In this document: positions 334-32,058 of the stretch, one piece after another
Layout of the letters: each line of letters begins with the position of its first letter
How positions within the stretch are numbered: position 1 is the first letter of the stretch
DNA from: Desulfurivibrionaceae bacterium
Lineage (GTDB): Bacteria; Desulfobacterota; Desulfobulbia; Desulfobulbales; UBA5123
Assembly (NCBI GenBank): GCA_030145325.1
Contig: JAQYVW010000018.1
Span: forward strand, 1 to 46,179
Length of the DNA: 46,179 bases
Direction: 5' to 3'
The notes under the pieces: generated by a model
The model's input: only the letters and a program-made list of their open reading frames with translations
Database searches by the model: none
What the model was told of the DNA's origin: nothing
Made by a program: the position numbers and the translations under genes

Positions 334-1725
334 ATGATGAATCGAGGCACCAAGCGCGAACTCATAGGTAACGAAGGGATGGTGATTCTAGATACCGTTC
401 GGCGTTTGAACCGGCGAAGTGCGGTTGATCATCTTCTCAAACTGGTTAACAAGACCCATCCTGCTGATATGGCGTGGGTTTACCGCCATCTTAATCCCAC
501 TGAACGTCAGAATATTTTTGGGATCATTGCCCAGACCCCCATGGTTGGCGAGTTTTTGAGTGAGCTTGATGATGCATTGATGCTGGAGGTGGTGGACGAT
601 CTGCCACCACGGTTCATGGTTACCATCGTTAATGAAATGGCCTCCGATGACGCCGCCGATCTTCTCGAAGCTCTTCCTGAAGAATTTGCCAACAAGATTC
701 GCGATCTCATGCACACCGATGATCGCAAGGAAGTCGATGACCTCCTCCAATATCATCCCGAAACTGCGGGTGGGCGGATGTCGCCCGACTTCATGGCCCT
801 CGATGAAAATTTGAGCGTTGGCGACGCCATTAAGCGGGTTCAGGAGCGTAGCGAAGAGATGGAAATGGCCTTCTATCTCTATATCACCCTTGGTGATGAT
901 AATCGCCTGGCCGGGGTGTTGTCTCTGCGTGAGCTGTTGATGCATCCTTCATATCGATTACTGAAAAATATCATGAATCCCAAGGTGCTGGCGGTAGGTA
1001 CCGATACTGATCAGAATGAAGTAGCGCATATCGTCTCGCAGTACAATATTCTGGCGGTACCGGTGGTGGATTCATCCTACCAGTTGGTGGGGATCGTCAC
1101 CGTCGACGATATTATTGACGTGATTCGTGAGGAAGCCACCGAGGAATTCCTACAGATGGCCGGTGCTGGTAAGGATCGCGAGATTCTCCTCAAGCCCACC
1201 ATGAAAAACGCCATGCTTCGTGCTCCCTGGCTCATGGCGACCTGGTTCGGCGGGGTGATCAATATTTTCGTGATCAACCATTTCCATGGCGAACTGCAGC
1301 AGGTATTAGCCCTTGCTTCCTTCATGCCCATTATCGCCGGGATGGGCGGTAACATTGGCAACCAGTCCAGCACCATCGTGGTGCGCGGAATCGCCACTGG
1401 TCGAATTAATATTCAGCAGGTAGGGAAGCTTATTTTTAAAGAGATGCGGGTGGGACTGCTGTTGGGAAGTTTTTTTGGCGTTTTCCTTGGTTTTTTTGCC
1501 CACTTTGATAATCTTGGCGGCCCGGTTTTGTTCGGACTAGTGGTGGGGTTGTCGATCCTTTTTTCCATGACCCTAGCCGCCACCGTCGGCACCATGGTGC
1601 CATTGATTCTGCGGCGGTTGGACATTGACACTGCCATTGCCACCGGCCCCTTTGTCACTACCACCATCGATACCTTGAGTATCGCTACCTTTTTTATAAC
1701 CGCTAAATTGGTTCTGAATCTCTAG
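334..1725 (+). CDS. mgtE: Magnesium transporter MgtE
   Basis: This is an inner-membrane Mg2+ channel gated by cytoplasmic Mg2+ binding. The 463-residue product has the family's normal length and order: an acidic N domain (about 30-140), a CBS pair (about 145-270) and a C-terminal membrane domain (about 295-463). The membrane domain contains the conserved PIIAGMGGNIGNQS stretch (332-345) and the pore segment ATGPFVTTTIDT (435-446), whose final Asp corresponds to the ion-selecting Asp of characterised MgtE. ATGs lie at 334 and 337. GGGGA at 326-330 is better spaced for the second, so the first Met may be absent. The downstream protease gene begins two bases after the stop, so the two are probably cotranscribed. 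Confidence 0.96.
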   Translation: MMNRGTKRELIGNEGMVILDTVRRLNRRSAVDHLLKLVNKTHPADMAWVYRHLNPTERQNIFGIIAQTPMVGEFLSELDDALMLEVVDDLPPRFMVTIVNEMASDDAADLLEALPEEFANKIRDLMHTDDRKEVDDLLQYHPETAGGRMSPDFMALDENLSVGDAIKRVQERSEEMEMAFYLYITLGDDNRLAGVLSLRELLMHPSYRLLKNIMNPKVLAVGTDTDQNEVAHIVSQYNILAVPVVDSSYQLVGIVTVDDIIDVIREEATEEFLQMAGAGKDREILLKPTMKNAMLRAPWLMATWFGGVINIFVINHFHGELQQVLALASFMPIIAGMGGNIGNQSSTIVVRGIATGRINIQQVGKLIFKEMRVGLLLGSFFGVFLGFFAHFDNLGGPVLFGLVVGLSILFSMTLAATVGTMVPLILRRLDIDTAIATGPFVTTTIDTLSIATFFITAKLVLNL

Positions 1726-1727
1726 GC

Positions 1728-2849
1728 ATGACGTACTCTTACTCTAGCCCTTCGCCAAAACGACGGATATCGTCGTTATTGATCCTTCTGCTGATTCTTG
1801 TCGGTCTCTGGTTGCTTTTCGGACGGCATGACTATCAGTTACGTTCACCGGAGCCGCCGCGGGCGATTACTGCCCGTGGTGATCTGGCCGCTGACGAGCA
1901 GAACACCATCGAGTTGTTTAGGGCCGCTTCACCGTCTGTTGTTTATATCACCAATATCGAATTACGCCGGAACCTGTTCAGCCTTAATGTGGCCGAGATC
2001 CCCAAGGGTACCGGGTCCGGATTTGTCTGGGATAAGGCGGGGCGGATTGTCACCAATTTTCATGTCATTGAGGATGCCAACAGTGTTGAGGTGACTCTGG
2101 CCGATCATTCTACCTGGAAAGCTTCGCTGGTGGGAGTTGCACCCGACAAGGATTTGGCTGTTTTGCAGATCCAAGCTCCTGCCGATGCTCTCTTTCCTCT
2201 GGCCATTGGTGAATCCCATAACTTACTGGTTGGCCAAAAGGTTTTTGCCATTGGCAATCCCTTCGGCCTTGACCAGACCATTACGGCTGGGATTGTCAGT
2301 GCCCTGGGGCGTGAGATCAAGTCAGTCACCGGTCGCACCATTCAGGGGGTTATCCAGACCGATGCGGCCATTAATCCCGGTAACTCCGGGGGGCCACTGC
2401 TGGATAGTTCCGGACGGTTGATCGGGGTTAATACCGCTATCTATAGTCCCAGTGGTGGCAGTTCCGGGATTGGGTTTGCCATGCCGGTTGACGAGGTCAG
2501 CAGTTTAGTGCCGGAGATCATCACTTATGGACGGGTGATCAGGCCCGGACTGGGGGTATCCCTAGCCAATGAAAGCATTACACATCGACTGGGAGTTACC
2601 GGGGTACTGATTGTCAAGGTGCATTCCGGCGGCAGCGCGGCCAAGGCCGGCTTGCATGGGATTAGGCAGCAAGGCAGCGAGATTGTTCTTGGTGACATTA
2701 TTACCGCCATTAATGGCGTGAAAGTACTTACCTACGATAAACTGCGCAATGAACTGGACCGGTATAAAGTTGGGGAGGAAGTGGAGTTGGAAATCGTTCG
2801 GGATGGCAAGAAGATCCTGGTGCAAGTAACCTTAGAGGAGGTTGCTTAG
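1728..2849 (+). CDS. DegS/HtrA-like membrane-anchored serine protease
   Basis: This is a periplasmic trypsin-fold protease of the HtrA family, involved in envelope stress and protein quality control. The N-terminus has one membrane anchor (about 15-31). The catalytic triad is visible as H112 (TNFHV), D142 (KDLAVL) and S220 (GNSGGP). One PDZ domain follows (about 270-373). With 373 residues, a single PDZ and an uncleaved anchor it resembles DegS more than DegP. A DegS role in sigma-E signalling cannot be inferred, because no RseA or RseP gene is near. It starts two bases after mgtE, and its end overlaps the next reading frame by eight bases. Confidence 0.9.
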   Translation: MTYSYSSPSPKRRISSLLILLLILVGLWLLFGRHDYQLRSPEPPRAITARGDLAADEQNTIELFRAASPSVVYITNIELRRNLFSLNVAEIPKGTGSGFVWDKAGRIVTNFHVIEDANSVEVTLADHSTWKASLVGVAPDKDLAVLQIQAPADALFPLAIGESHNLLVGQKVFAIGNPFGLDQTITAGIVSALGREIKSVTGRTIQGVIQTDAAINPGNSGGPLLDSSGRLIGVNTAIYSPSGGSSGIGFAMPVDEVSSLVPEIITYGRVIRPGLGVSLANESITHRLGVTGVLIVKVHSGGSAAKAGLHGIRQQGSEIVLGDIITAINGVKVLTYDKLRNELDRYKVGEEVELEIVRDGKKILVQVTLEEVA

Positions 2850-4224
2850 GCATATTTTGACTTGGTGGACACGAGCATTACGGAGTCTGATTTCAACGGG
2901 CGAGGATGAGCAGCTTGATCTCTTTCGCATCTTCCCATCCTTCCGTCGTTTTTTGGCGGCCAGGCAACATTACGCCTATTTACGGACCTTTGGCGATGTT
3001 CTTTTTGCGGTGGTGGTTATCTCCGGTTTTTTCGGACCGCAAAATGTGACTCACAATGTCGCCGTTTTTCTGACCTGGGGATTGCTCTGGCCAGGGATTG
3101 TCTTGTCATGGTTTTTCGTTGGCAGGATGTGGTGTGGCATCTGTCCATTTCCGGGCCTCGGGGTTTTTCTGCAACGCAAAGGGTTGACCCTATCGTTGCC
3201 GGTGCCGCATCTGCTCAAAAAATACGGGGTGTACACCTCGGTTATCCTTTTAGCCCTAATCATTTGGATTGAGGAGGTGGCGGCCCTTGATTATTCTCCG
3301 GCTGGAACTTCCTGGCTTGTCCTCTCCATTGTTGCCGGAGCAGCATTGTTCAGCATTCTTTTCCCTGGTCAGGCCTGGTGTCGGCATCTCTGTCCATTGG
3401 GCAGGATCAGTGGCGCTGCTGCAACTTTATCTATCACCGAATTCCGTCCCGATCATAATAAATGCCGTGGTTGTGAAACCTTTGCTTGCCAGAAAGGCAA
3501 GAACGGCAAAAATGGTTGCCCGGTGTATTTGGGCGCCTACAATGTTAGAAACAACCTGCACTGTTTGGTTTGTGGTCATTGTTTACCGTTTTGTCATCGC
3601 GACTCTCCACAGTTTTTGCTTCGCAATCCCTATGCCGAGTTGATCCGTAACAAAGGCCGCTACATTACCTGTACCTACATCGTTCCTTTTCTGATTGGCT
3701 CACAGTTGGCCCGTTTTCTGCGAGAAAAACCCCTCTATCGAGAGGTGGTCGAGCTGGCTAATTTCGGTCCTTATTCTGAAGCGGTGATTTTCAGTCTTTT
3801 ACTGGTGATAGGATTTTTGTTTATCCTAGGAGTGATAAGGTTTGGCACCCATTTATTCGGGATTAGCGAGGATCCGTTGTTCGGTCGTTTTGCGCCGCTG
3901 GTGCCAATCTTTATTCCCATGGCCTTTACCGGCGAACTTGTCTACCGGATGAACTATTTCGCCAACGGGGTTGGTGATTTTATTCCCACCTTTGGTCGTC
4001 AGATCGGGTTTGATTTTCTGGGGATATTTGCCTTTACCATCCCAGATTTTCCGGTGCAGATTCTTTCGGCCTTCTTTCTTTTGAACGGTGCCATTGCCGG
4101 ATGTTATATCTTCTGGCGTCTCTGCCTTGAGGATTTCGAGGGTCTAGTGTCGTTTAAGAATTTCCTCGGCATCAATCTTCTCATCGGCGGACTGCTCCTC
4201 GCCTATCTGGCTGTTTTATTCTAA
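2842..4224 (+). CDS. Membrane 4Fe-4S binding protein, NosR/NapH-like
   Basis: This polytopic membrane iron-sulfur protein resembles the ferredoxin-like halves of NosR, NapH and CcoG, which pass electrons between the quinone pool and periplasmic or membrane reductases. Two Cys-Pro motifs close membrane helices (C98/C101-P and C180/C184-P). Two 4Fe-4S sets follow: C208, C211, C216, C226 and C241, C244, C247, C251. The last 200 residues hold several further hydrophobic segments. No FMN-binding domain is seen, so it is not full NosR. The frame opens at TTG 2842, but a GAGGAGG sequence at 2835-2841 abuts it directly, so the true start may be TTG 2857. Overlap with the protease suggests translational coupling. 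The electron partner is unknown. Confidence 0.8.
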   Translation: MLRHILTWWTRALRSLISTGEDEQLDLFRIFPSFRRFLAARQHYAYLRTFGDVLFAVVVISGFFGPQNVTHNVAVFLTWGLLWPGIVLSWFFVGRMWCGICPFPGLGVFLQRKGLTLSLPVPHLLKKYGVYTSVILLALIIWIEEVAALDYSPAGTSWLVLSIVAGAALFSILFPGQAWCRHLCPLGRISGAAATLSITEFRPDHNKCRGCETFACQKGKNGKNGCPVYLGAYNVRNNLHCLVCGHCLPFCHRDSPQFLLRNPYAELIRNKGRYITCTYIVPFLIGSQLARFLREKPLYREVVELANFGPYSEAVIFSLLLVIGFLFILGVIRFGTHLFGISEDPLFGRFAPLVPIFIPMAFTGELVYRMNYFANGVGDFIPTFGRQIGFDFLGIFAFTIPDFPVQILSAFFLLNGAIAGCYIFWRLCLEDFEGLVSFKNFLGINLLIGGLLLAYLAVLF

Positions 4225-7061: not shown

Positions 7062-9287
7062 TTACTGGTCGTCATTGCCGGAGAGTACTTCTTGAATAAC
7101 CCTGAGCAGGGTTGCCGCCTTGTAGGGCTTTGGCACCACGGCCTTAAAACCGTGATTGGCGAAGTCAGCCATGGCGGCATCCATGGAGTAGCCACTGGAG
7201 ACAATCGCTTTTACTGCCGGATCTATTTCCCTTAGTTTTTGGATCGCTTCTTTACCACCCATGCCGCCGGGGATGGTGAGATCCATAATCACCACATCGT
7301 ATGGTTTCCCTTCTTGTAACGCTTTTCGGTAGCTGTTAACGGCCTCTTGCCCATCGGTGCTCACCGCCACCTCAAAATCATGGCTGGTTAGCAGCTCGCT
7401 GGTCAGTTCACGGATCATTTCGTCGTCGTCCATGACCAAAATCTTGCCGGTCTGTTTGATCCTGGTATCCGGGGCTTCCTCTCGTAGGTCTATCACTGGT
7501 GCGTCAGAGGCGGCAAGGTAGAAGATGAAAGTTGCGCCTCTATTCTTTTTTGATTCGGCATGGATATAGCCATCATGCTTTTTGATGACGGCATAGCAAG
7601 AGGCAAGTCCCAGACCGCTGCCGGTTTTCTTGGTGGAAAAATAAGGGTCGAAGATCTTTTTGATGTCTTTTGGGTTGATGCCAGGACCGGTGTCCTGAAC
7701 GGTTATCTTGATATAACGGCCCGGTTTAAGCGGCACTTTCTTGCTATTGCTGATCTTGGCATTCTCGGCCCGGACAGTGATGGTGCCACCCTTGACCATG
7801 GCCTGATCGGCATTGATCACCAGGTTATTAATAACCTGCGCGATCTGCCCTTCGTCGATTTCCGTGGCCCAGAGTTCCTCGGCAATTTCGAAATCGCATT
7901 GGACATTGGAGCCACGGAGGGCAAAGAGGGCAGTTTCTTTAAGGAAATCGGTGATGGCGGCCGTTTTTTTCACTGGGGCGCCGCCTTTTGAAAAGGTTAA
8001 CAGCTGTTGGGTAAGATCACGAGCCCGCATGCAGGCTTTTTCCGCTCTGGATAGTTTTTCCACCACCGGCGTACCTGAATCTGCCGTCATCTTGGCCAGG
8101 GTGATATTGCCGAGGATGCCGGTGAGCAGATTGTTGAAGTCATGGGCAATGCCACCGGCAAGAATACCTAGAGATTCGATGCGGCGAGCGTTAAGAAGTT
8201 CTTCTTCCACTCTTTTTTCGGCAGTGATGTCACGAAAAACCATGACCACGCCGATAATTTCCTGATCATGATCGTAGATCGGCGCCGCATTGGCCGAGAT
8301 TAGGCGTTCATAACCGTCGCGGGCGATGAGAACTGTATCGTCGGTAATGGCGATGCTTTTCCCTTCCACCATCACGTCTCTGGGAAGATTAATGCAGCTG
8401 GAGCGTTTTTTCTCATCAACAATCCAAAAAACCTCGCAAGAAGGTTTAGCGTGTGCTTTTTGTTGTGTCCAGCCGGTTAGTTTTTCGGCGATGCGGTTCA
8501 TCAAGACGATATTGCCATCCACATCGGTGGTGATAACCCCTTCGGCAATACTGCGCAAAGTGACGGCCAGTTGTTCTTTTTCTGCGGCAATGGCGTTGGC
8601 AGCCTGTTTCTGAAAGGTTATATCGTGATAGAGAAGAACACCGTAAACAACCTTGCCCTCCTTGTTTTTCACTGGAGTGGCGACAATGTCGAAGAAGCGT
8701 TCACGTACCGGCCAGTCAGGGAAGTGCACGGGCTGGCCGCTGTCGAGAACCTTGCGGAAAGGGCATTCCTGTTGCAGACGGCTGTCGCGGCAAACAATTT
8801 CATGGCAGGAGGTGCCTTTCCATTCACCCTTAAAATCCGTAAATAGGCGCTGGGCATGATCGTTATACGCCTGAATATGCATGTTTTCGTCAACCACCAG
8901 CACGCTACAGCCCACCGCATCAAAGATCGCCTTGATCTCTTCCATGGTCAGTTCAAGTTTCTTGTTAGTTTCCCGCTGGTGTTCGAGGATTTGGATGAAG
9001 GATTCGGCCACCACGCCAATGGGATCCATGGTGATGAGGATATCGTCTTCCAGTTCTTCCGGCTTCAGGGGGATGGTGCCGATAACATCAAGCAACTGGT
9101 TGGTTTTTTTGCGGATGTAGTGATTAGCCTTGCTATTTTTACAAAGCAAGGCACGATTTGCAAGGATCAGCGAGTTGATGCTGTCCAGCAATTCCCCAAC
9201 ATCACCAGCGCTGTCAAGATTCGGTAACGGTGCATCCAGATCTTGACTTGCCTTGCGGATCGCCTTGATTAATTGTTGGTATTTCAT
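7062..9287 (-). CDS. PAS-domain hybrid sensor histidine kinase with receiver
   Basis: This is a soluble-looking hybrid kinase of 741 residues without obvious membrane segments. A helical N-terminal region (1-115) is followed by two PAS domains (about 120-230 and 240-355), a HisKA domain with phospho-acceptor H382 in AHDFNN, and a HATPase domain (N-box N492, DTGPG at 532-536, GSGLGLA at 556-562). The C-terminal receiver has acidic residues D620-D622, phospho-acceptor D669 and K720. Its start overlaps the tusA stop as ATGA, so it is translated with the sulfur genes upstream and may respond to sulfur or redox state. No DNA-binding output is attached and no separate regulator adjoins it. The ligand is unknown. 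Confidence 0.93.
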   Translation of the reverse strand: MKYQQLIKAIRKASQDLDAPLPNLDSAGDVGELLDSINSLILANRALLCKNSKANHYIRKKTNQLLDVIGTIPLKPEELEDDILITMDPIGVVAESFIQILEHQRETNKKLELTMEEIKAIFDAVGCSVLVVDENMHIQAYNDHAQRLFTDFKGEWKGTSCHEIVCRDSRLQQECPFRKVLDSGQPVHFPDWPVRERFFDIVATPVKNKEGKVVYGVLLYHDITFQKQAANAIAAEKEQLAVTLRSIAEGVITTDVDGNIVLMNRIAEKLTGWTQQKAHAKPSCEVFWIVDEKKRSSCINLPRDVMVEGKSIAITDDTVLIARDGYERLISANAAPIYDHDQEIIGVVMVFRDITAEKRVEEELLNARRIESLGILAGGIAHDFNNLLTGILGNITLAKMTADSGTPVVEKLSRAEKACMRARDLTQQLLTFSKGGAPVKKTAAITDFLKETALFALRGSNVQCDFEIAEELWATEIDEGQIAQVINNLVINADQAMVKGGTITVRAENAKISNSKKVPLKPGRYIKITVQDTGPGINPKDIKKIFDPYFSTKKTGSGLGLASCYAVIKKHDGYIHAESKKNRGATFIFYLAASDAPVIDLREEAPDTRIKQTGKILVMDDDEMIRELTSELLTSHDFEVAVSTDGQEAVNSYRKALQEGKPYDVVIMDLTIPGGMGGKEAIQKLREIDPAVKAIVSSGYSMDAAMADFANHGFKAVVPKPYKAATLLRVIQEVLSGNDDQ

Positions 9288-9559
9288 GCTTGCTCGTTGG
9301 GGGGAAGTGGGTGGCCGACGAGGATCTCGTAATATCCTTTTTGCTTGCTTACCTGCACATCATAGCCCATGTTTTTGACTGCATTGGGGATGGTTGCCGT
9401 GGAATGGCGGTGGTCAGTCATGATTTTGATGATTACCTGTCCCTCTTTGAGGGCATTTCTGTGTAGGTTAAGTTGTTGCAGGGTGACCAAGAGGGTGGAA
9501 GGGCAAACCTGTCCTCTAGTGTCGATCATAATTTCTTTTGCGGTGCTGATTTCGGTCAT
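9284..9559 (-). CDS. TusA-family sulfur carrier protein
   Basis: This small cytosolic sulfur carrier of the TusA/SirA/YedF family accepts sulfane sulfur on a conserved Cys. C19 lies in the family motif DTRGQVCPSTLL near the N-terminus, and the fold length (91 residues) is typical. An upstream ATG at 9565 is only one base from AAGGA (plus-strand 9566-9570). The ATG at 9559 is six bases from it and is preferred. That ribosome-binding site overlaps the stop of the YeeE gene, and the tusA stop overlaps the kinase start, so all three genes should be coupled. The pairing with YeeE indicates thiosulfate or sulfane-sulfur assimilation. It could instead be a YedF-like protein. Confidence 0.9.
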   Translation of the reverse strand: MTEISTAKEIMIDTRGQVCPSTLLVTLQQLNLHRNALKEGQVIIKIMTDHRHSTATIPNAVKNMGYDVQVSKQKGYYEILVGHPLPPNEQA

Positions 9560-9568
9560 TATCATTCC

Positions 9569-10702
9569 TTATCGGCAGGAACAGTTATTTTGTTTGCTGA
9601 GAAGTTGGAAGAGAATTTTTCCGCCCACCCAAGTGCCCAAGGGCAAACCAAGTAGAAAAAGCAAGCTGCGGATGGCGAAGATGGGGATTCCCCCCATCAG
9701 ATGCCAAATGTTGCAGCCAGCCCCCATGCGGCAAGCAAAGCCCATGATGGCACCGCCCAGAAGGGCGGTAATTAATTGTTGGCCGGGTACCTTGTAGCGA
9801 ATGGCGAATTCCCCAAGCATAACGGCAGAGAATGCGCTACCGCCGGTGATGCCGATGATCAGCGGAAACTGGATGTCCCATATGCTATCCAAGGCCGGGC
9901 CAGCGCCGCCGCGCAAGGGGGTGTCGAGGAGTTGGTGGAAAACATTGAGGGGTACGCCTTGAAAGTAGGCGACGCCACTGACATGCTCGGGGATGAAGAG
10001 GTTCTCGATGATGGCCGCAATCTTGGTGTAGGTGGTGCTGATCCCCAACGGCATCCCGAGGAGAACATAGGAAATCGTACCAAGCAAGGAGATGATGAGG
10101 GCTGCTTTCCATGGTTGAATGTAGCCTGCGACCACGGAGTCGTTGTCCCAGAGATGTTGTTGTCGCCAATGGTGAAGAATGAAGATGGCCGGGACGGCAA
10201 CCACTGCGACCATTACGGTGGGGTTGATGCCCAGTAACTGCGGCACGGTAACGGCGTCGGCAAGGATGGTCGCTTTAGTGAAAGCCGCCCAACTCGGGTG
10301 GATTTCTGGATACAGGCCACTGCCGACAAGCAGACCGACGAAGGCAAAAATGCTGGTGACGCTTCCTGATCCCATCTTGTAAAGGGTACCCACCACGCAG
10401 CCACCGGCAAGGACCATGCCGATGCCGAAGACAACACCGCCGATGAGGTTGGCAAGGGAAGGTTTGCCGATCAGGGGAAAGGGGTAAAAGGGTAGCGCCC
10501 CAGACTGGCGCAAGACTTCAAACAGGATCATGGTGACCACGATCTGGAGGAAGAGAGCGCGGATCATGAAGGTATGACGGAACATTATTGCGTCGCGGAA
10601 CATGCCGGCAACGCAATAATCTGCGCGGTGCATGACAAGACCGGCGCTAATGCCGATAACGAGAGAAATGGTGAAAATCAGGGTCGTTGGCTCGATATGC
10701 AT
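9569..10702 (-). CDS. YeeE/YedE family thiosulfate or sulfur transporter
   Basis: This polytopic inner-membrane protein has 377 residues. It belongs to the YeeE/YedE family, whose characterised members take up thiosulfate through conserved channel cysteines. Matching Cys motifs are visible near the N-terminus (HRADYCVAG, C30), in the middle (AGGCVVGTLYKMGSG) and near the C-terminus (CRMGAGCNIWH). Many hydrophobic segments cover the length, and the protein ends in a Cys pair (NNCSCR). It is the first gene of the yeeE-tusA-kinase cluster, four bases or less from tusA. The exact sulfur species transported is inferred from the family. Confidence 0.9.
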   Translation of the reverse strand: MHIEPTTLIFTISLVIGISAGLVMHRADYCVAGMFRDAIMFRHTFMIRALFLQIVVTMILFEVLRQSGALPFYPFPLIGKPSLANLIGGVVFGIGMVLAGGCVVGTLYKMGSGSVTSIFAFVGLLVGSGLYPEIHPSWAAFTKATILADAVTVPQLLGINPTVMVAVVAVPAIFILHHWRQQHLWDNDSVVAGYIQPWKAALIISLLGTISYVLLGMPLGISTTYTKIAAIIENLFIPEHVSGVAYFQGVPLNVFHQLLDTPLRGGAGPALDSIWDIQFPLIIGITGGSAFSAVMLGEFAIRYKVPGQQLITALLGGAIMGFACRMGAGCNIWHLMGGIPIFAIRSLLFLLGLPLGTWVGGKILFQLLSKQNNCSCR

Positions 10703-10852
10703 ATCTGTCCCAAAGTAAGGCTTGGTGACCGTCGTCTACCTAAACGATTAAAACATAAGGGAAATGCATATTCAATTACAATTTACGGCATAAACCTGCA
10801 CGTAGGTATGGTTAAGCTTTTTGCCTGGGTGGAATAATAGTTTTGGCCATCA

Positions 10853-11422
10853 TCAGGCCTGTACATCAACCACCGTCCCGCCACCAAGTTCCTGAATCTT
10901 GGCATCAATCATGCTCAGGGCCTTTTCCATGGTCTGGTAGCTGATTTCCGGTAATTTGCCTCCCCAGATCTTTTCTGCTTCATTAAAGCCTCGGTTGATG
11001 CCTTCTCTGCCAGCCTGCAATCTTTGCAGGTCATCACCGCCGCCTTTGATAACAAAATCGGCAAGGCGTTGCGCAGTCTGATCAACTCCGAAATAACCGT
11101 CTTCAGCCACCAGATCGGTTGCTTCCTCAGGAGTCAGTTCGGTGAGTGGTCGACCGTTGTATTCAAGTTGCTCAAGATCGAAACCCTGTGCTGCCGCGCG
11201 TTCCTTGATTCCGCTTTGCCAGGCAAAGGTTTTCTTCGCTTCGGTCGCGGTACTGAGCAGCGACTCCATGCGTCTGGCTTTGATCCCAGCGACCACCTCA
11301 TCCATACGTTTTGCGTTGGGGGGGGCTTCGCCCTTCTTTTTGGTGGCCATCTCCTGCATGAATTGCGTTTGCTGTGTTTTTAATGCTTGTGTCGGTGATG
11401 AGGTCTGGTTGATGCTGGTCAT
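10853..11422 (-). CDS. Conserved hypothetical protein, coiled and charged
   Basis: This 189-residue soluble protein lacks a signal peptide or membrane segment. It begins with a polar Gln/Thr-rich stretch and is otherwise helical and charged. The C-terminal part contains LQAGREGINRGFNEAEKIWG followed by KLPEIS. I associate this type of sequence with Desulfobacterota proteins loosely labelled hydrogenase-4 component G, but no hydrogenase gene is nearby and I would not assign that role. A strong GGGAGGA ribosome-binding site precedes ATG 11422. It lies 118 bases downstream of yejF on the same strand. The AT-rich gap may carry its own promoter. Confidence 0.8.
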   Translation of the reverse strand: MTSINQTSSPTQALKTQQTQFMQEMATKKKGEAPPNAKRMDEVVAGIKARRMESLLSTATEAKKTFAWQSGIKERAAAQGFDLEQLEYNGRPLTELTPEEATDLVAEDGYFGVDQTAQRLADFVIKGGGDDLQRLQAGREGINRGFNEAEKIWGGKLPEISYQTMEKALSMIDAKIQELGGGTVVDVQA

Positions 11423-21455: not shown

Positions 21456-23948
21456 ATGGAAACAACAAATCTCGAACTGCAACTTGTCGCTGATTATATC
21501 AAGAACACCGACACCTCGGTTTTTCTAACCGGTAAGGCTGGCACCGGAAAAACCACATTCCTGCGGTCCTTAAAAGAGAATACCTCCAAACGGATGATTA
21601 TTACTGCGCCCACCGGGGTGGCAGCTATCAATGCCGGTGGCGTAACCCTGCATTCGTTTTTTCAGATGCCTTTTGGGCCTATGGTTCCGGGCAGTGAGGC
21701 CTACGGGACTGATCGGCAGCGGCGGTTTCGAAAGGAAAAGAAAAATATTATCGTCAGCCTTGATCTCTTGGTGATCGATGAAATCAGTATGGTGCGAGCT
21801 GACCTCCTTGATGGGGTGGACACGGTCTTGCGCCGTTATCGCCGCAACGATCAGCCTTTCGGGGGCGTGCAACTACTCATGATTGGTGATCTGCATCAGC
21901 TGCCACCGGTGGTGAAGGATGATGAATGGCGTCTGCTGCGCGATCATTACCAGTCGCCTTATTTTTTCAGTTGCCAAGCTCTGGCTAAAACCCCATTGGC
22001 GACCATTGCCCTGAAACACATCTATCGGCAATCCGATAATCATTTCATCCAACTACTCAACCGGGTGCGGGATAATAACCTTGATGGGCAAAGTTTGGCG
22101 GAACTCAATCAGCGTTATCAACCCAAGTTCTCCCCCAGCGATAAAAATCAGGGTTACATCACCCTCTGTACTCACAATCGACAGGCCGATACCATCAACC
22201 AGGCCAGGCTGAAGGAGGTGGCGGGTAAGTCGCGCAGCTTTCAGGCCCTGATCGAAGGTGATTTCCCTGAATACGCTTATCCAACCCAGGCCTCTTTGGA
22301 GCTCAAGAACGGTGCCCAGGTGATGTTTGTGCGTAACGACTCTTCTCCCGAAAAGCTCTACTATAACGGTAAAATCGGCAAAATAACCCGCATTATCAAC
22401 GAGACGATCTGGGTGCAATGTGAAGGTGACAGGGAGGAGATCAAGGTTGAGCCGGTTACTTGGGAGAACATCAAGTATCAGCTGGATCAGGAGAGCAACG
22501 AGATCACCGAAGATAAGGTCGGTTTCTTTATTCAGCATCCCTTAAAGCTTGCTTGGGCAATAACCATCCACAAGAGTCAAGGCTTGACCTTTAGCAGGGT
22601 GGTCATTGATGCTGGGGCAGCGTTTGCCCATGGTCAGGTATACGTGGCCTTGAGCCGCTGCAAGACCTTGGAAGGGATTGTTCTCAGTTCGCCAATCTCT
22701 TTGCAAGCGGTGAAAACAGACCGTACGGTCATGCAATTTACGGAGCTGGCGATCCAAAATCAGCCCACTCCTGAACAGTTGATCGTTGCCAAAACTTCCT
22801 ATCAGCAACGATTGCTCAGTCAATGCTTTGATTTTAAGCCTCTAAGCTTGCGCCTCTACGGTTTACTGAACATTCTGGCGCAGAACGGACAGGTCATCAG
22901 GGTATCGGGGGGAGGCGATCAGGATGAATTGCGCGACCGAGCCGTGAAGGAAATCTTCGTTGTGGGTGAAAATTTTAAACGGCAACTGAGCAAGCTCTTT
23001 GTTGCCGGGGGGCTGCCTGAAGAGGATGAGGTCTTAAAGGAACGCACCATTAAGGCTTCAGCCTATTTTCAAGAAAAGCTTGAGACCATTCTGGGGCCGT
23101 TGGTCACAGAGATAATCATTGAGTCCGATAACCAAGAGCTGCGGAAACGGTGCCAAGAAGCGATCAAACAACTGCAAAAGGAATTCATGGTCAAGCTGGC
23201 AGTGGTGAAATCCTGCCGGAACGGCTTTGATCTTCATCTTTACCTGCGGGCAATCTCAGCCGCCGAGGTCCAATCGGTATCAGTGGCTAGATCGAAAAAA
23301 CAATCATCGCAGTACCTGGAATCAGATATCGATCATCCTGAACTTTTCCAAGAATTAAAGGACTGGCGCAGCAAGCAAGCAGCCGTGGAAGAAGTTCCCC
23401 ATTACCGGATTCTCCATCAGAAAATCCTGATCCAGATTGCCGTCACCTTGCCCAACGATTTGACCTCATTAAAAATGATCAAGGGTCTGGGGAAAAGGAC
23501 TGCTGAAAAATATGGGGCCCCGTTGCTTGCCATGGTGGTTGCTTATCGCCAAAAACATAAGATTAAGGACGTGACCCTGCCAAGCCCCAAAACCATGTCC
23601 GGGACGCAAAACCATGGTGAAGCAAACAGCAAAACGAAGCCGCCAGGAGAGACCAAGCAAATCAGTTTTGATCTGTTGCAAAAGGGTCTGACCATGGCCG
23701 AAATTGCCAAAGAGCGGGGATTAAATATCTCAACCATTGAAGTGCATTTGACAGCCTTTGTTGCCAATGGAGAATTGGCAATCGACAAACTGCTATCCAA
23801 TGAAAAACAACAGCTAATCGAACAGAAAATCGCTGAAAGAGATGGGCAGACCTACGGTCAAATAAAAAAGGGTCTGGGTGATGATTATTCCTATGGTGAA
23901 ATAAAACTGGTTCTGGCCCATCTCCAGGCAAAAGAGTCTCAGGTTTAA
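21456..23948 (+). CDS. Pif1/RecD-like superfamily 1 helicase with HRDC and HTH modules
   Basis: This ATP-dependent DNA helicase has 830 residues. Walker A is GKAGTGKT (26-33), Walker B is LLVIDEISMV (104-113, D108/E109), and the late helicase motif AITIHKSQGLTF lies near 370. These match the Pif1/RecD2 branch, moving 5' to 3' in known members. The C-terminal third adds an HRDC-like domain (roughly 625-700, with LKMIKGLGKRTAEKYG) and a helix-turn-helix (roughly 735-785, TMAEIAKERGLNISTIEVHL) of the kind that ends RecQ proteins. This puts RecQ-type accessory modules on an SF1 motor. No good ribosome-binding site precedes the ATG. It stands alone, and its role in repair or replication restart is inferred. 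Confidence 0.88.
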   Translation: METTNLELQLVADYIKNTDTSVFLTGKAGTGKTTFLRSLKENTSKRMIITAPTGVAAINAGGVTLHSFFQMPFGPMVPGSEAYGTDRQRRFRKEKKNIIVSLDLLVIDEISMVRADLLDGVDTVLRRYRRNDQPFGGVQLLMIGDLHQLPPVVKDDEWRLLRDHYQSPYFFSCQALAKTPLATIALKHIYRQSDNHFIQLLNRVRDNNLDGQSLAELNQRYQPKFSPSDKNQGYITLCTHNRQADTINQARLKEVAGKSRSFQALIEGDFPEYAYPTQASLELKNGAQVMFVRNDSSPEKLYYNGKIGKITRIINETIWVQCEGDREEIKVEPVTWENIKYQLDQESNEITEDKVGFFIQHPLKLAWAITIHKSQGLTFSRVVIDAGAAFAHGQVYVALSRCKTLEGIVLSSPISLQAVKTDRTVMQFTELAIQNQPTPEQLIVAKTSYQQRLLSQCFDFKPLSLRLYGLLNILAQNGQVIRVSGGGDQDELRDRAVKEIFVVGENFKRQLSKLFVAGGLPEEDEVLKERTIKASAYFQEKLETILGPLVTEIIIESDNQELRKRCQEAIKQLQKEFMVKLAVVKSCRNGFDLHLYLRAISAAEVQSVSVARSKKQSSQYLESDIDHPELFQELKDWRSKQAAVEEVPHYRILHQKILIQIAVTLPNDLTSLKMIKGLGKRTAEKYGAPLLAMVVAYRQKHKIKDVTLPSPKTMSGTQNHGEANSKTKPPGETKQISFDLLQKGLTMAEIAKERGLNISTIEVHLTAFVANGELAIDKLLSNEKQQLIEQKIAERDGQTYGQIKKGLGDDYSYGEIKLVLAHLQAKESQV

Positions 23949-27552: not shown

Positions 27553-30500
27553 ATGCCACAAGGGGTTACGAGTCCAATGATATTTACATTGTCACGCCGC
27601 TTGAGAGTCAGAGACGATGGTAGCGGAAAAAGCAGAGACAGAGAAGGTACGTTTGCCGAGTTCGAGACCGAGGATGCGATTATTCTTCTTGGCGACCCCG
27701 GAATGGGCAAAACAACCTTTTTTAGGGATGCTTCAAAAAAGAATTCTACGACTGTCCGTAATTTCCTGATCGACCCTCATAATACGACGAGTGATTCTTT
27801 ATTCCTTGATGCACTTGATGAATACAGGATTGTTGCAAGCGGGCAAGATGCCAGCGCCGAAATTGCCAAGGCTCTTTGTGCCTTGAAGAAGCCTAAATTC
27901 AGGTTGTCGTGCAGGGCTGCGGATTGGTTTGGCTCAACTGATCAAGAAGTTTTTAGGGCCGCCAGTGCATCCGGGCGAGTTGTGGTTCTTGAACTCTGTC
28001 CACTCTCGCGAAATGAAATACTAAATGCCGTGCAAGGAGTTGTTCCAGACCCGGTTGTTTTTCTGGAAGAAGCAGAAGCAGCAGGGCTCGGGAATCTCCT
28101 TGGTAACCCTCAAACGCTTGAACTTTTTGCGCTGGCTTGGGGAACCGACAAGAAACCTCGGAATAAGTTTGAGGCATATGAAACAGGTGTTTCTGGACTG
28201 ATTAAAGAGGCGAACGACAACCATATTTCACGCGGTGAAACCAGCTCGGATCCTAGTGATTTGCGAAAAGCTGCAAGTGCAGCCGCCTCCATTATACTTC
28301 TTTCTAACTCTGTTGGTGTTTCGCGCGCAGAGTCGGCGGATGGCGATGGTTATTTTATGCTTTCCATTGTGCCGCATCCGAACAAAAAGGATCTTGATGC
28401 TGTTGTGAAGCGGCGGCTCTTTATTTCCTCGGCGGTGGATCGGTTTGAACCGATTCACCGCACAATTATTGAGTTCTTAGCGGCTGAAGATTTATCTAAT
28501 CGCATCGCAAACGGCCTCCCGATTGATCGTGTGATGGCTCTAATATGCGGTGTTGATGGAAGACCAGTTTCTTCGCTCCGAGGTCTCTTTGCCTGGTTGA
28601 TGTGCAGGCTTGAACATCTCGCAGAGGATTACGTCGAGCGTGATTCCTATGGTGTTGCTACTTACGGTGATGCAAGCGTATTGCCACCAGGCGCACAATG
28701 CGCAATCTGGACAGGCCTTAAGAAGCTTCGCGATCCATGGTTTCTCACGAAAAAGGGTGATAGCGCTTCGTTCCGTGATCTTGCGAATCAAAATACGGCC
28801 AAGATCATAAATGAACTTCTCCACGACCCGGCAACTGGAGTTCATTTGAAAATTGCCGTACTTGAAGCAATCGCAAACAGTTCAGAGCAGATAGGGCTGG
28901 GTACGATAATTCGAGACATGGTGTTGGATAAGCGGAACAATTTAGTGCTGAGAACGACTGCATTAAAAGCATTTTCCATATCGGTTCAAAGCGATTGGAT
29001 TTTGATGGAAGCGCTTGATGTTGAGCTTGCTCAGGCAACCGATGACCTAGCTGCCTCTGAAGTGCGAGTGGATCTTCTCCTTCTGACACGATCATGTGGC
29101 TGTTTGACCCGACGGTTGCTTTCAATTTTGAAACAGGTAGTTGTTTCTAAGGAAGAACGGCGTGTGATTGGACGTTTTTATCCGCTGGGTGATCTGCCAT
29201 CCGGTGCCGACTTAGATGTGCTTCTTGATAATGCATCATTAGTGTTAGCCGCCACCAATGAGGATCGTTTTGAACTCCGAGGACTCTACGATAAGTGGTT
29301 ACAACGCCGCCTTGAGGACGTCGCACCCATCACATCCTCGCAACTCTCCGGTTGGCTTCTAAGTTTTAAAAGCCGCAAGCAAGATTCAAATACTTTGGCG
29401 TTTTTGGAAATACGATTTGAACAAGAATCACGGCTATTTGAAGAGATTTTTGAACTGTTTGTTAAGAACGTGCCAAACAAGCAACGGTCATTAAGGCTCT
29501 TCCTCGATCACGATCTTTGGCAACTGTTGCCAGCGACAGTATGGCCCGTTCTCCCATATGAATTTTTTTTGGCTCGTGCCGAGAAGGAGAGGGATCCGGA
29601 ACATGCGGCATACTTCATCCGTATGTATCATTCTTGGTTTCCGCTTGAGGGTGCATCCGTTTCCTTAGCGGAAGCAGGGTTTGAGTTATTGGAACGACGT
29701 CATGATGTTGCAAAGGAGGTTGGGGATTGGAGAAGTTGCAAACTCGAAAAATATCAAAAAAAACGTTTTGAAAAAAAGCGTCGCAAGGATGCGGTAGCTC
29801 GCGCTAAACATGCGGTGACTCGCGATCAGGATATTGCTTGCTTTACTCCACGCTTAACGACAATCAGAGAAGGGGGAGAGGAACGTCTACTTGCATGGGC
29901 AGCTGTTATTTATCTAGGTTTTTTTCGTGACGAAAAGGACATTCCTGACGCGCGGGAGCGTCTAGTCATCAAGACAAATGAAGAGATCGCAGATGCTGTT
30001 ATTATGGGGTTCAGTCGCTACGCCGAAAATCTTTGTATTCCAAAAAAAGAGGCAGTCATCGAAAGCTCGTTGGCAAACAGCATTCCTGATACTCATACTT
30101 TATTGTGTTTGTCCGTGTACTTGCGATACAAGGCCGGCATGTCTGTACCTGAAGAGGCGCTGCCGCCTTGTGTTGCGGCAGTGGTTATGGCCGTGCACGT
30201 TGGAGACATGGTGCCTGGTTACGAGGAAATGCTGACAGCATGGCTTATTCATGAAGTACATCAGCATCCAGCCATTGTTGAAGCTGTTCTCAGCGAAATA
30301 TGGCTTTCTGTTGCGACGCATAATAAAAAAGGAACTCTACCTAAATTTTATGAACTTAGCCGTGACCAAGGTTCCCGGCCAGTTCTCGCTTCGTTGTCCG
30401 CTAATGTTTTAAAGTCTGGGATTATTGAGGATTATGACACCGTTGAAAAACTTGTGTCAGTTCTTTTGGATCATGATCGGCGGGCCGCCATGGTAATCGG

Positions 30501-31632
30501 TGAGACCGAACTGGCTAGAACTGAATTGTCAGCGAAAACGCGCGCTGTCTGGAATACAGTTCTTTTCATGATTGATCCGGCCAAGTATGCGGTTCCTTGG
30601 CAACTTCTCATGTCGAAAGCAGATGCTTCAGTTATGTGGGCAACCATTGATACCCTACGAGGGGATAGTTACTCAAATATAGAACCTTTCATCCTCACGT
30701 CGTCACAACGTGCAGATGTTGTCATGTCGGTAGGCCAAAGATTTGCTAATGTTGGACATCCAATTGGCAGTTGGAGAGGTAGCCAAAATGATTGGCAAGC
30801 GGCGGAATTTGTCGCCAACCAGATAAAGCTCTTAGCTGCCGATAGCTCAGCAGACGTTACTCTTCAGTTTGAAAAATTGGAGAATGAAGCTGGTCTGGAA
30901 AGTTATCGAGATTTGATCAGACATCAGAGGGCGCAGTACGAAAAACAGCAGCGAGAGTCTCACTTTACATTCGCGTCGCCCGAGAGAATCGTTCAAGCAA
31001 TCAGCAATCACATACCAGCTACTCCAAGCGACCTCTTGGCTTTCATAGTCGATCATCTTAGAGTTCTTTCCTTCGAACTGGCGAGAACACAAAGAGAAAG
31101 ATACCGAGCCTATTGGAACGAAAAAGGGCGTGATTTAATTAAACCGAAACGTGAGGAAGTGTGCTCTGGGTTTCTGGCGGAGGATTTACTGCACAGGGTT
31201 AAGGCACAAAGTCTTATCGTGACGGTGGAACACCACATGATTGCAGATAAGGAATGTGATCTAATGGTTTTGCAGGGAAACGACCGGCTCTTGCCTATAG
31301 AAGTAAAGCACCACTATAATCCAGAACTTTGGACAGCTTGGCGGACGCAACTTGATCACCTATACATACGAGAAGCAAAGACTGGGGGGCTCGGGATCTA
31401 TCTTGTTCTTTGGTCAGGGGAGGCAAAGGACCGGAAGATGCCGAAACTTCCAGAAGGTCTCAAGCGGCCAACCAGTGCTATTGAACTCAGTAGGGCGCTC
31501 AAATCACTCATACCAGAAAAAGATCAAGGTCGACTGCGGGTTGTTGTGGTGGATATTTCGGCCCCTAAGCCACACAGAGGAACCACAGATAAGCACAACT
31601 TAGGGAAACCGGGACAGATCTATTTTCTCTAA
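27553..31632 (+). CDS. Large STAND/NACHT-like NTPase with C-terminal PD-(D/E)XK nuclease motif
   Basis: The protein has 1359 residues. The N-terminus is a P-loop NTPase of STAND/NACHT type: Walker A GDPGMGKT (47-54), Walker B LFLDALDE (83-90) with D86 and the D89-E90 pair, a sensor-like FRLSCRAADW (116-125), and a winged-helix-like end containing EPIHRTIIEFLAAEDL (299-314). Residues about 330-1200 are mostly helical and probably repeat-like, with a Lys/Arg-rich stretch at 731-752. The C-terminus has D1236, then E1250-V-K1252 and Q1266, the spacing of a PD-(D/E)XK nuclease core. Such NTPase-plus-nuclease fusions are typical of antiphage defence. Sampled lines are 38-45% GC against 55-67% in neighbours. 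The start may be ATG 27577 (residue 9). No family name is claimed. Confidence 0.85.
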   Translation: MPQGVTSPMIFTLSRRLRVRDDGSGKSRDREGTFAEFETEDAIILLGDPGMGKTTFFRDASKKNSTTVRNFLIDPHNTTSDSLFLDALDEYRIVASGQDASAEIAKALCALKKPKFRLSCRAADWFGSTDQEVFRAASASGRVVVLELCPLSRNEILNAVQGVVPDPVVFLEEAEAAGLGNLLGNPQTLELFALAWGTDKKPRNKFEAYETGVSGLIKEANDNHISRGETSSDPSDLRKAASAAASIILLSNSVGVSRAESADGDGYFMLSIVPHPNKKDLDAVVKRRLFISSAVDRFEPIHRTIIEFLAAEDLSNRIANGLPIDRVMALICGVDGRPVSSLRGLFAWLMCRLEHLAEDYVERDSYGVATYGDASVLPPGAQCAIWTGLKKLRDPWFLTKKGDSASFRDLANQNTAKIINELLHDPATGVHLKIAVLEAIANSSEQIGLGTIIRDMVLDKRNNLVLRTTALKAFSISVQSDWILMEALDVELAQATDDLAASEVRVDLLLLTRSCGCLTRRLLSILKQVVVSKEERRVIGRFYPLGDLPSGADLDVLLDNASLVLAATNEDRFELRGLYDKWLQRRLEDVAPITSSQLSGWLLSFKSRKQDSNTLAFLEIRFEQESRLFEEIFELFVKNVPNKQRSLRLFLDHDLWQLLPATVWPVLPYEFFLARAEKERDPEHAAYFIRMYHSWFPLEGASVSLAEAGFELLERRHDVAKEVGDWRSCKLEKYQKKRFEKKRRKDAVARAKHAVTRDQDIACFTPRLTTIREGGEERLLAWAAVIYLGFFRDEKDIPDARERLVIKTNEEIADAVIMGFSRYAENLCIPKKEAVIESSLANSIPDTHTLLCLSVYLRYKAGMSVPEEALPPCVAAVVMAVHVGDMVPGYEEMLTAWLIHEVHQHPAIVEAVLSEIWLSVATHNKKGTLPKFYELSRDQGSRPVLASLSANVLKSGIIEDYDTVEKLVSVLLDHDRRAAMVIGETELARTELSAKTRAVWNTVLFMIDPAKYAVPWQLLMSKADASVMWATIDTLRGDSYSNIEPFILTSSQRADVVMSVGQRFANVGHPIGSWRGSQNDWQAAEFVANQIKLLAADSSADVTLQFEKLENEAGLESYRDLIRHQRAQYEKQQRESHFTFASPERIVQAISNHIPATPSDLLAFIVDHLRVLSFELARTQRERYRAYWNEKGRDLIKPKREEVCSGFLAEDLLHRVKAQSLIVTVEHHMIADKECDLMVLQGNDRLLPIEVKHHYNPELWTAWRTQLDHLYIREAKTGGLGIYLVLWSGEAKDRKMPKLPEGLKRPTSAIELSRALKSLIPEKDQGRLRVVVVDISAPKPHRGTTDKHNLGKPGQIYFL

Positions 31633-31773
31633 AGAATTCCTTATCCCTCTCGCTTAACGACACATTGCCTTATGTAGCGCATTCTTGACAATAGCCATTA
31701 AGGTAGCCATCTTTAATAGTGAGTGCCGCTTGAAGTGGTACATAGCATAAAGTTCATCTCCGAGGGTGGGATC

Positions 31774-32048
31774 ATGCATAAACAATTCTCCATTGTCGAA
31801 GCAAAAAACAAACTGCCCGCGATTATCCATAGCGTTGAGGTAGGCTCTGCCGTTGAGTTGACCCGGCGGGGGAAACCTGTTGACATGGTTATGTCAACAG
31901 CGGAATATGAACGTTTGACCCATCCCAAAGAAGGATTTCTGTAGGCTTTGACCACGCTCTGCGAGAACTTGCGGCCTAACGACATTATCGTTCGGATTCA
32001 GATTTCGAGGGTCTTCGAGATGATTCAGAGGGGCGGGAGGTTGTTTAG
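31774..32048 (+). pseudogene. Broken Phd/YefM-family antitoxin gene
   Basis: ATG 31774, preceded by a GAGGGTGGG ribosome-binding sequence, opens a frame matching Phd/YefM antitoxins: FSIVEAKNKLPAIIHSVEVG, then ELTRRGKPVDMVMSTAEYERL. It stops at TAG 31942-31944 after 56 codons. The expected C-terminal tail of such antitoxins follows in another frame at 31995-32048, reading DSDFEGLRDDSEGREVV and then a stop. A premature stop plus a frameshift therefore separates the DNA-binding part from the toxin-binding tail. No PIN or RelE toxin gene follows; the next gene, on the opposite strand, ends 10 bases later. The short intact part might still be made. Confidence 0.8.
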
Positions 32049-32058
32049 TTACATGGTT

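Follow-up and report, generated by a model that had tools for sequence, protein, structure and literature searches.

A large gene resembling eruA lies on the forward strand in the window (the whole stretch of DNA that was analysed; Table 1), alone, with an ion-channel gene on one side and a radical SAM gene on the other. The genes around it have ordinary metabolic and cellular functions, and no defence island was found in the 46,179 nt of the window. Elsewhere (21456-23948, forward strand), a gene encodes a PIF1-like helicase that carries HRDC and HTH_40 domains. Several PADLOC helicase models match it weakly to moderately, and it is probably an ordinary helicase. The eruA-like frame is intact, with no stop across 1359 codons. 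The nearest complete relative (L002), on a proteobacterial MAG contig, encodes a protein that shares 63% identity with it over the whole length, and the copy in L122 is 56% identical. Because both proteins begin at methionine 9 of the window frame, codon 9, at position 27577, is probably the conserved start and would yield a protein of 1351 residues. Codon comparison with L002 indicates purifying selection: dN is ~0.27 and dS ~1.3-1.6 (1.6 by NG86), with a dN/dS near 0.17-0.22, and differences by codon position were 53% for the third and 26% and 20% for the others.

Table 1. Predicted features of the eruA-like gene (window coordinates; residues numbered from the first listed codon).
Feature	Residues	Position	Strand	Basis
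eruA-like gene	1359 codons as listed, 1351 if codon 9 starts	27553..31632	+	full-length NF058535 match, 792.9 bits
Likelier start codon	M9	27577..27579	+	start site of relatives L002 and L122; purine-rich stretch upstream
NACHT/STAND NTPase with winged-helix-like end	~42-319	27676..28509	+	invariant columns; Foldseek NLRC4/NLRP3, E 1e-6 to 2e-4
NTPase motifs	Walker A 46-54, Walker B 82-90, sensor-like R121		+	invariant columns
All-helical solenoid, presumed sensor	~320-1066	28510..30750	+	AlphaFold2 DSSP; Foldseek; lowest conservation vs L002
PD-(D/E)XK nuclease domain	~1201-1341	31153..31575	+	E1201, E1226, D1236, E1250-x-K1252, Q1266-x4-Y1271

Downstream of the gene we found a Phd/YefM-type antitoxin gene (31723-31944, forward strand; Pfam E 1.6e-7). 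Where a toxin gene would be expected next, there is a short, interrupted frame (31945-32051; ...SDSDFEGLRDDSEGREVV). We take this frame to resemble the end of a PIN toxin; 31723-32051 is probably a decayed toxin-antitoxin pair. The gene of the L122 relative (7356-11353, reverse strand) is broken: its reading frame changes near residue 1070, not far from where the solenoid joins the nuclease. The change may reflect gene decay, an assembly error or a natural split. No evidence was seen that it is a programmed split of the nuclease, and we have kept it as a broken gene or an assembly error. The window gene could itself be a decayed copy that has lost its function, as the apparent toxin remnant nearby and the broken relative in another genome might suggest. 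However, its frame is full length, every catalytic residue is present and its dN/dS against L002 is that of a constrained gene, so that we consider this explanation the least probable of those weighed here.

The preliminary description could not place the protein in a named family. This did not hold: the NCBIfam model NF058535 ("NACHT domain-containing antiphage protein EruA", release 20) matches it over the full length (792.9 bits, E 8e-238, profile positions 13-1318 of 1318), and the family has thus largely been characterised already under another name, though through a match below the curated cut-off. Indeed, the equivalog cut-off of NF058535 is set at 1000 bits, which both the window protein and L002 (841.3 bits) miss. 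We therefore call the window protein a divergent EruA homologue and not EruA in NCBI's sense; its identity to members above the cut-off is ~19-26%. The match to the sister family HyoA (NF058534) is partial and reaches 92.2 bits, with a cut-off of 1200. Pfam gave sub-threshold P-loop matches (NACHT, E 0.1), and a PADLOC-DB search with the protein returned nothing convincing and matched no Avs model, which explains the missing family placement in the earlier reading. The DefensePredictor paper (PMC13092281) uses neither Eru nor Hyo as a name, and the name EruA is also borne in the literature by an unrelated E. coli regulator.

In the phylogenetic tree, the window protein emerged within a 16-member EruA clade (support 100/100), separate from the clade holding HyoA. 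This clade mixes members on both sides of the cut-off: L088 (805 bits) grouped with full support with L004 (1033 bits) and L089 (1032 bits), and L039 reached 1359 bits. The EruA cut-off does not delimit a clade. The window protein and L002 form a sub-branch of their own, with the L122 copy also close, the tree settling the split of the EruA clade from HyoA and not the branch order within the former. From its sequence, the window protein is best described as a divergent homologue of the antiphage protein EruA, the word "antiphage" being taken from the NCBIfam name. Since the family already bears that name, the gene represents no new kind of system.

We examined residue conservation across 26 aligned members of the EruA and HyoA clades. 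In the N-terminal part, G52 and K53 of the Walker A motif, D86, D89 and E90 of the Walker B motif and R121 are identical in all 26, and G50 is kept in 24. AlphaFold2 modelling of residues 1-1065, using the window protein and its relatives, gave a model of moderate quality (mean pLDDT 72), in which an alpha/beta P-loop domain is followed by a winged-helix-like hairpin and helix element at ~278-319. When this model was compared with the PDB by Foldseek, NLRC4 and NLRP3 made up the top 13 matches (E 1e-6 to 2e-4). Solved structures searched by sequence, using phmmer with the protein and hmmsearch with the family profile, returned only chance P-loop matches. Sequence and model together thus predict a P-loop, a DE-ended Walker B, a winged-helix-like domain and a NACHT fold, the hallmarks of STAND/NACHT proteins, and the STAND NTPase with a winged-helix-like end that had been proposed at the N-terminus is borne out.

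The helical middle, also proposed earlier as the presumed sensor, appears in the model as ~740 residues of unbroken helix after the winged-helix-like element, and importin/CAND1-type helical solenoids rank after NLRC4 and NLRP3 in the Foldseek search. This part is the least conserved relative to L002 (57% identity, compared with 67% for the NTPase and 74% for the C-terminal end), a pattern as expected for a putative sensor.

The nuclease motif initially read at the C-terminus (D1236, E1250-V-K1252 and Q1266) was correct but incomplete, as E1201, E1226 and Y1271 must be added to it. E1201, D1236, E1250, K1252, Q1266 and Y1271 are identical in 26 of the 26 aligned proteins; such invariance of NTPase and nuclease residues is far beyond chance. 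The AlphaFold2 model of residues 1040-1341 (pLDDT 81) has an alpha-beta-beta-beta-alpha-beta topology, the canonical core of the PD-(D/E)XK superfamily, with D1236 and E1250-x-K1252 on neighbouring strands and Q1266 and Y1271 on the next helix. The best Foldseek matches were mostly PD-(D/E)XK proteins (McrC at the top, with Can2, NucS, SfsA, EndoMS and EcoRV among the others) and also included Mrr/PD-(D/E)XK phage proteins; all were weak, none falling below E 0.001. The C-terminal end is thus predicted to be a PD-(D/E)XK nuclease that keeps its catalytic residues, and fold prediction agrees with the earlier assignment at both ends of the protein.

The McrC match brings up the main rival explanation, direct restriction, whereby the solenoid would bind foreign, modified or unusual DNA and ATP turnover would permit the C-terminal nuclease to cut locally, leaving the host unharmed. 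McrC is the nuclease of an NTPase-driven restriction system, a solenoid and a nuclease at one end could hold DNA, and one relative lies within a type I restriction cluster. Nevertheless, the NTPase resembles in Foldseek the NACHT domains of NLRs and not McrB or helicases, and no DNA-recognition domain is recognisable in the window protein. We consider direct restriction unlikely, and favour an NLR-like antiphage protein.

We also looked at the distribution of the family. About five EruA-like genes, full length or fragmentary, were found among 258 genomes of the same order, and none in the two same-genus genomes or the single same-family genome; when E. coli genomes were searched for distant DNA similarity to the Pantoea relative, no match emerged. 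Relatives are carried on plasmids of Rhizobium, Bradyrhizobium, Vibrio, Pantoea and Burkholderia, and in prophages with adjoining Mu-like head or tail genes (L087 and L088), the viral contigs being prophage-like by selection. An EruA gene above the cut-off (L120) lies in an HsdS - Ppl-like - HsdR cluster, and other relatives lie near HsdM, SIR2 and Schlafen-like genes. The preliminary description had called for a survey of homologue neighbourhoods; the homologues appear to be mobile and often adjoin defence genes. In L120, the gene between HsdS and HsdR that adjoins the EruA gene encodes a 911-aa TrlF/Ppl-like ATPase (974-3706), and a TrlF-family gene precedes the eruA-like gene of the Pantoea relative (L035). 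In three members of the clade (L004, L089 and L022), an AAA_14/DUF4143 ATPase gene is found directly upstream, that of L004 being a strong match to the PADLOC candidate PDC-S01; no such partner accompanies the window gene or several of the relatives on plasmids. The pairing may mark a two-gene subtype.

The window gene has a GC content of ~47%, compared with 51-57% around it, and sits at the border of a region whose synteny is kept in the same-family genome (G003); in G003, the genes that come after the radical SAM gene are different ones. Both features are compatible with acquisition of the gene. Comparison with a same-genus genome did not reveal an empty insertion site, as the match to the neighbouring aminotransferase stopped early; the flanks contain no tRNA, nor any direct repeats that could pass for target-site duplications. 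The solitary position of the gene between its ion-channel and radical SAM neighbours might instead suggest a housekeeping or repair nuclease that is coupled to a NACHT switch and plays no part in phage defence. However, the gene is missing from the same-genus and same-family genomes, its relatives travel on plasmids and prophages and the family is named antiphage, all of which makes such a role very improbable.

How does the predicted antiphage protein compare with known systems? It shares with EruA full-length homology, domain order, catalytic residues and clade, and differs in its score, low identity and separate sub-branch. HyoA, although of a separate clade (100/100), likewise has a NACHT domain, a helical middle, the PD-(D/E)XK domain last and the same invariant residues. 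bNACHT25 and bNACHT32, of clade 6 bNACHT, also combine NACHT and PD-(D/E)XK in one antiphage protein, but their nuclease is N-terminal and their sensor C-terminal (PMC12169576), the reverse of the window protein. Similarly, Avs (AVAST) proteins combine a STAND NTPase with a repeat-rich sensor and an effector that is often a nuclease, but their effector is normally N-terminal. Last, NLRC4 and NLRP3, the animal NLRs best matching the N-terminal part among solved structures, have an N-terminal effector-recruiting domain, C-terminal leucine-rich repeats and no nuclease. The N-terminal effector and C-terminal sensor of clade 6 bNACHT and Avs proteins are thus not found here: the NTPase begins at about residue 40 and the nuclease occupies 1201-1341. 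The reversed order noted in the preliminary description is therefore confirmed by fold prediction, but it is not unique to this gene, being common to EruA and HyoA.

All together, we propose, with a probability of about 0.78, that the window gene encodes an NLR-like protein of the EruA clade that defends against phages as a single-gene system, in which sensing by the solenoid would lead to NACHT assembly and DNA cleavage by the nuclease. The solenoid would recognise a phage-derived or infection-induced signal, and its binding would relieve NACHT autoinhibition, allowing nucleotide exchange, ATP binding and oligomerisation. NACHT clustering would then bring the C-terminal nuclease domains together to cleave phage and/or host DNA, which would stop phage production and abort the infection, probably at the cost of the cell. 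In bNACHT25, which has the same two enzyme types, the PD-(D/E)XK nuclease is required for defence and DNA is degraded on activation (PMC12169576).

For genome annotation, the EruA cut-off overlooks clear clade members that retain all catalytic residues. The residual interest of the window gene lies in the reversed NLR order of EruA and HyoA, an arrangement that departs from the rule generally given for STAND proteins. With the nuclease last, the window protein and these families offer a clean test of whether NLR activation requires an effector at the N-terminal end. More tentatively, EruA and HyoA might constitute a distinct and widespread reverse-order branch of NLR-like immune proteins, where NACHT assembly at the N-terminal end would control, via the solenoid sensor, a nuclease ~1,150 residues away. 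If so, their activation must differ from the standard mode, with an N-terminal effector clustered above a NACHT ring.
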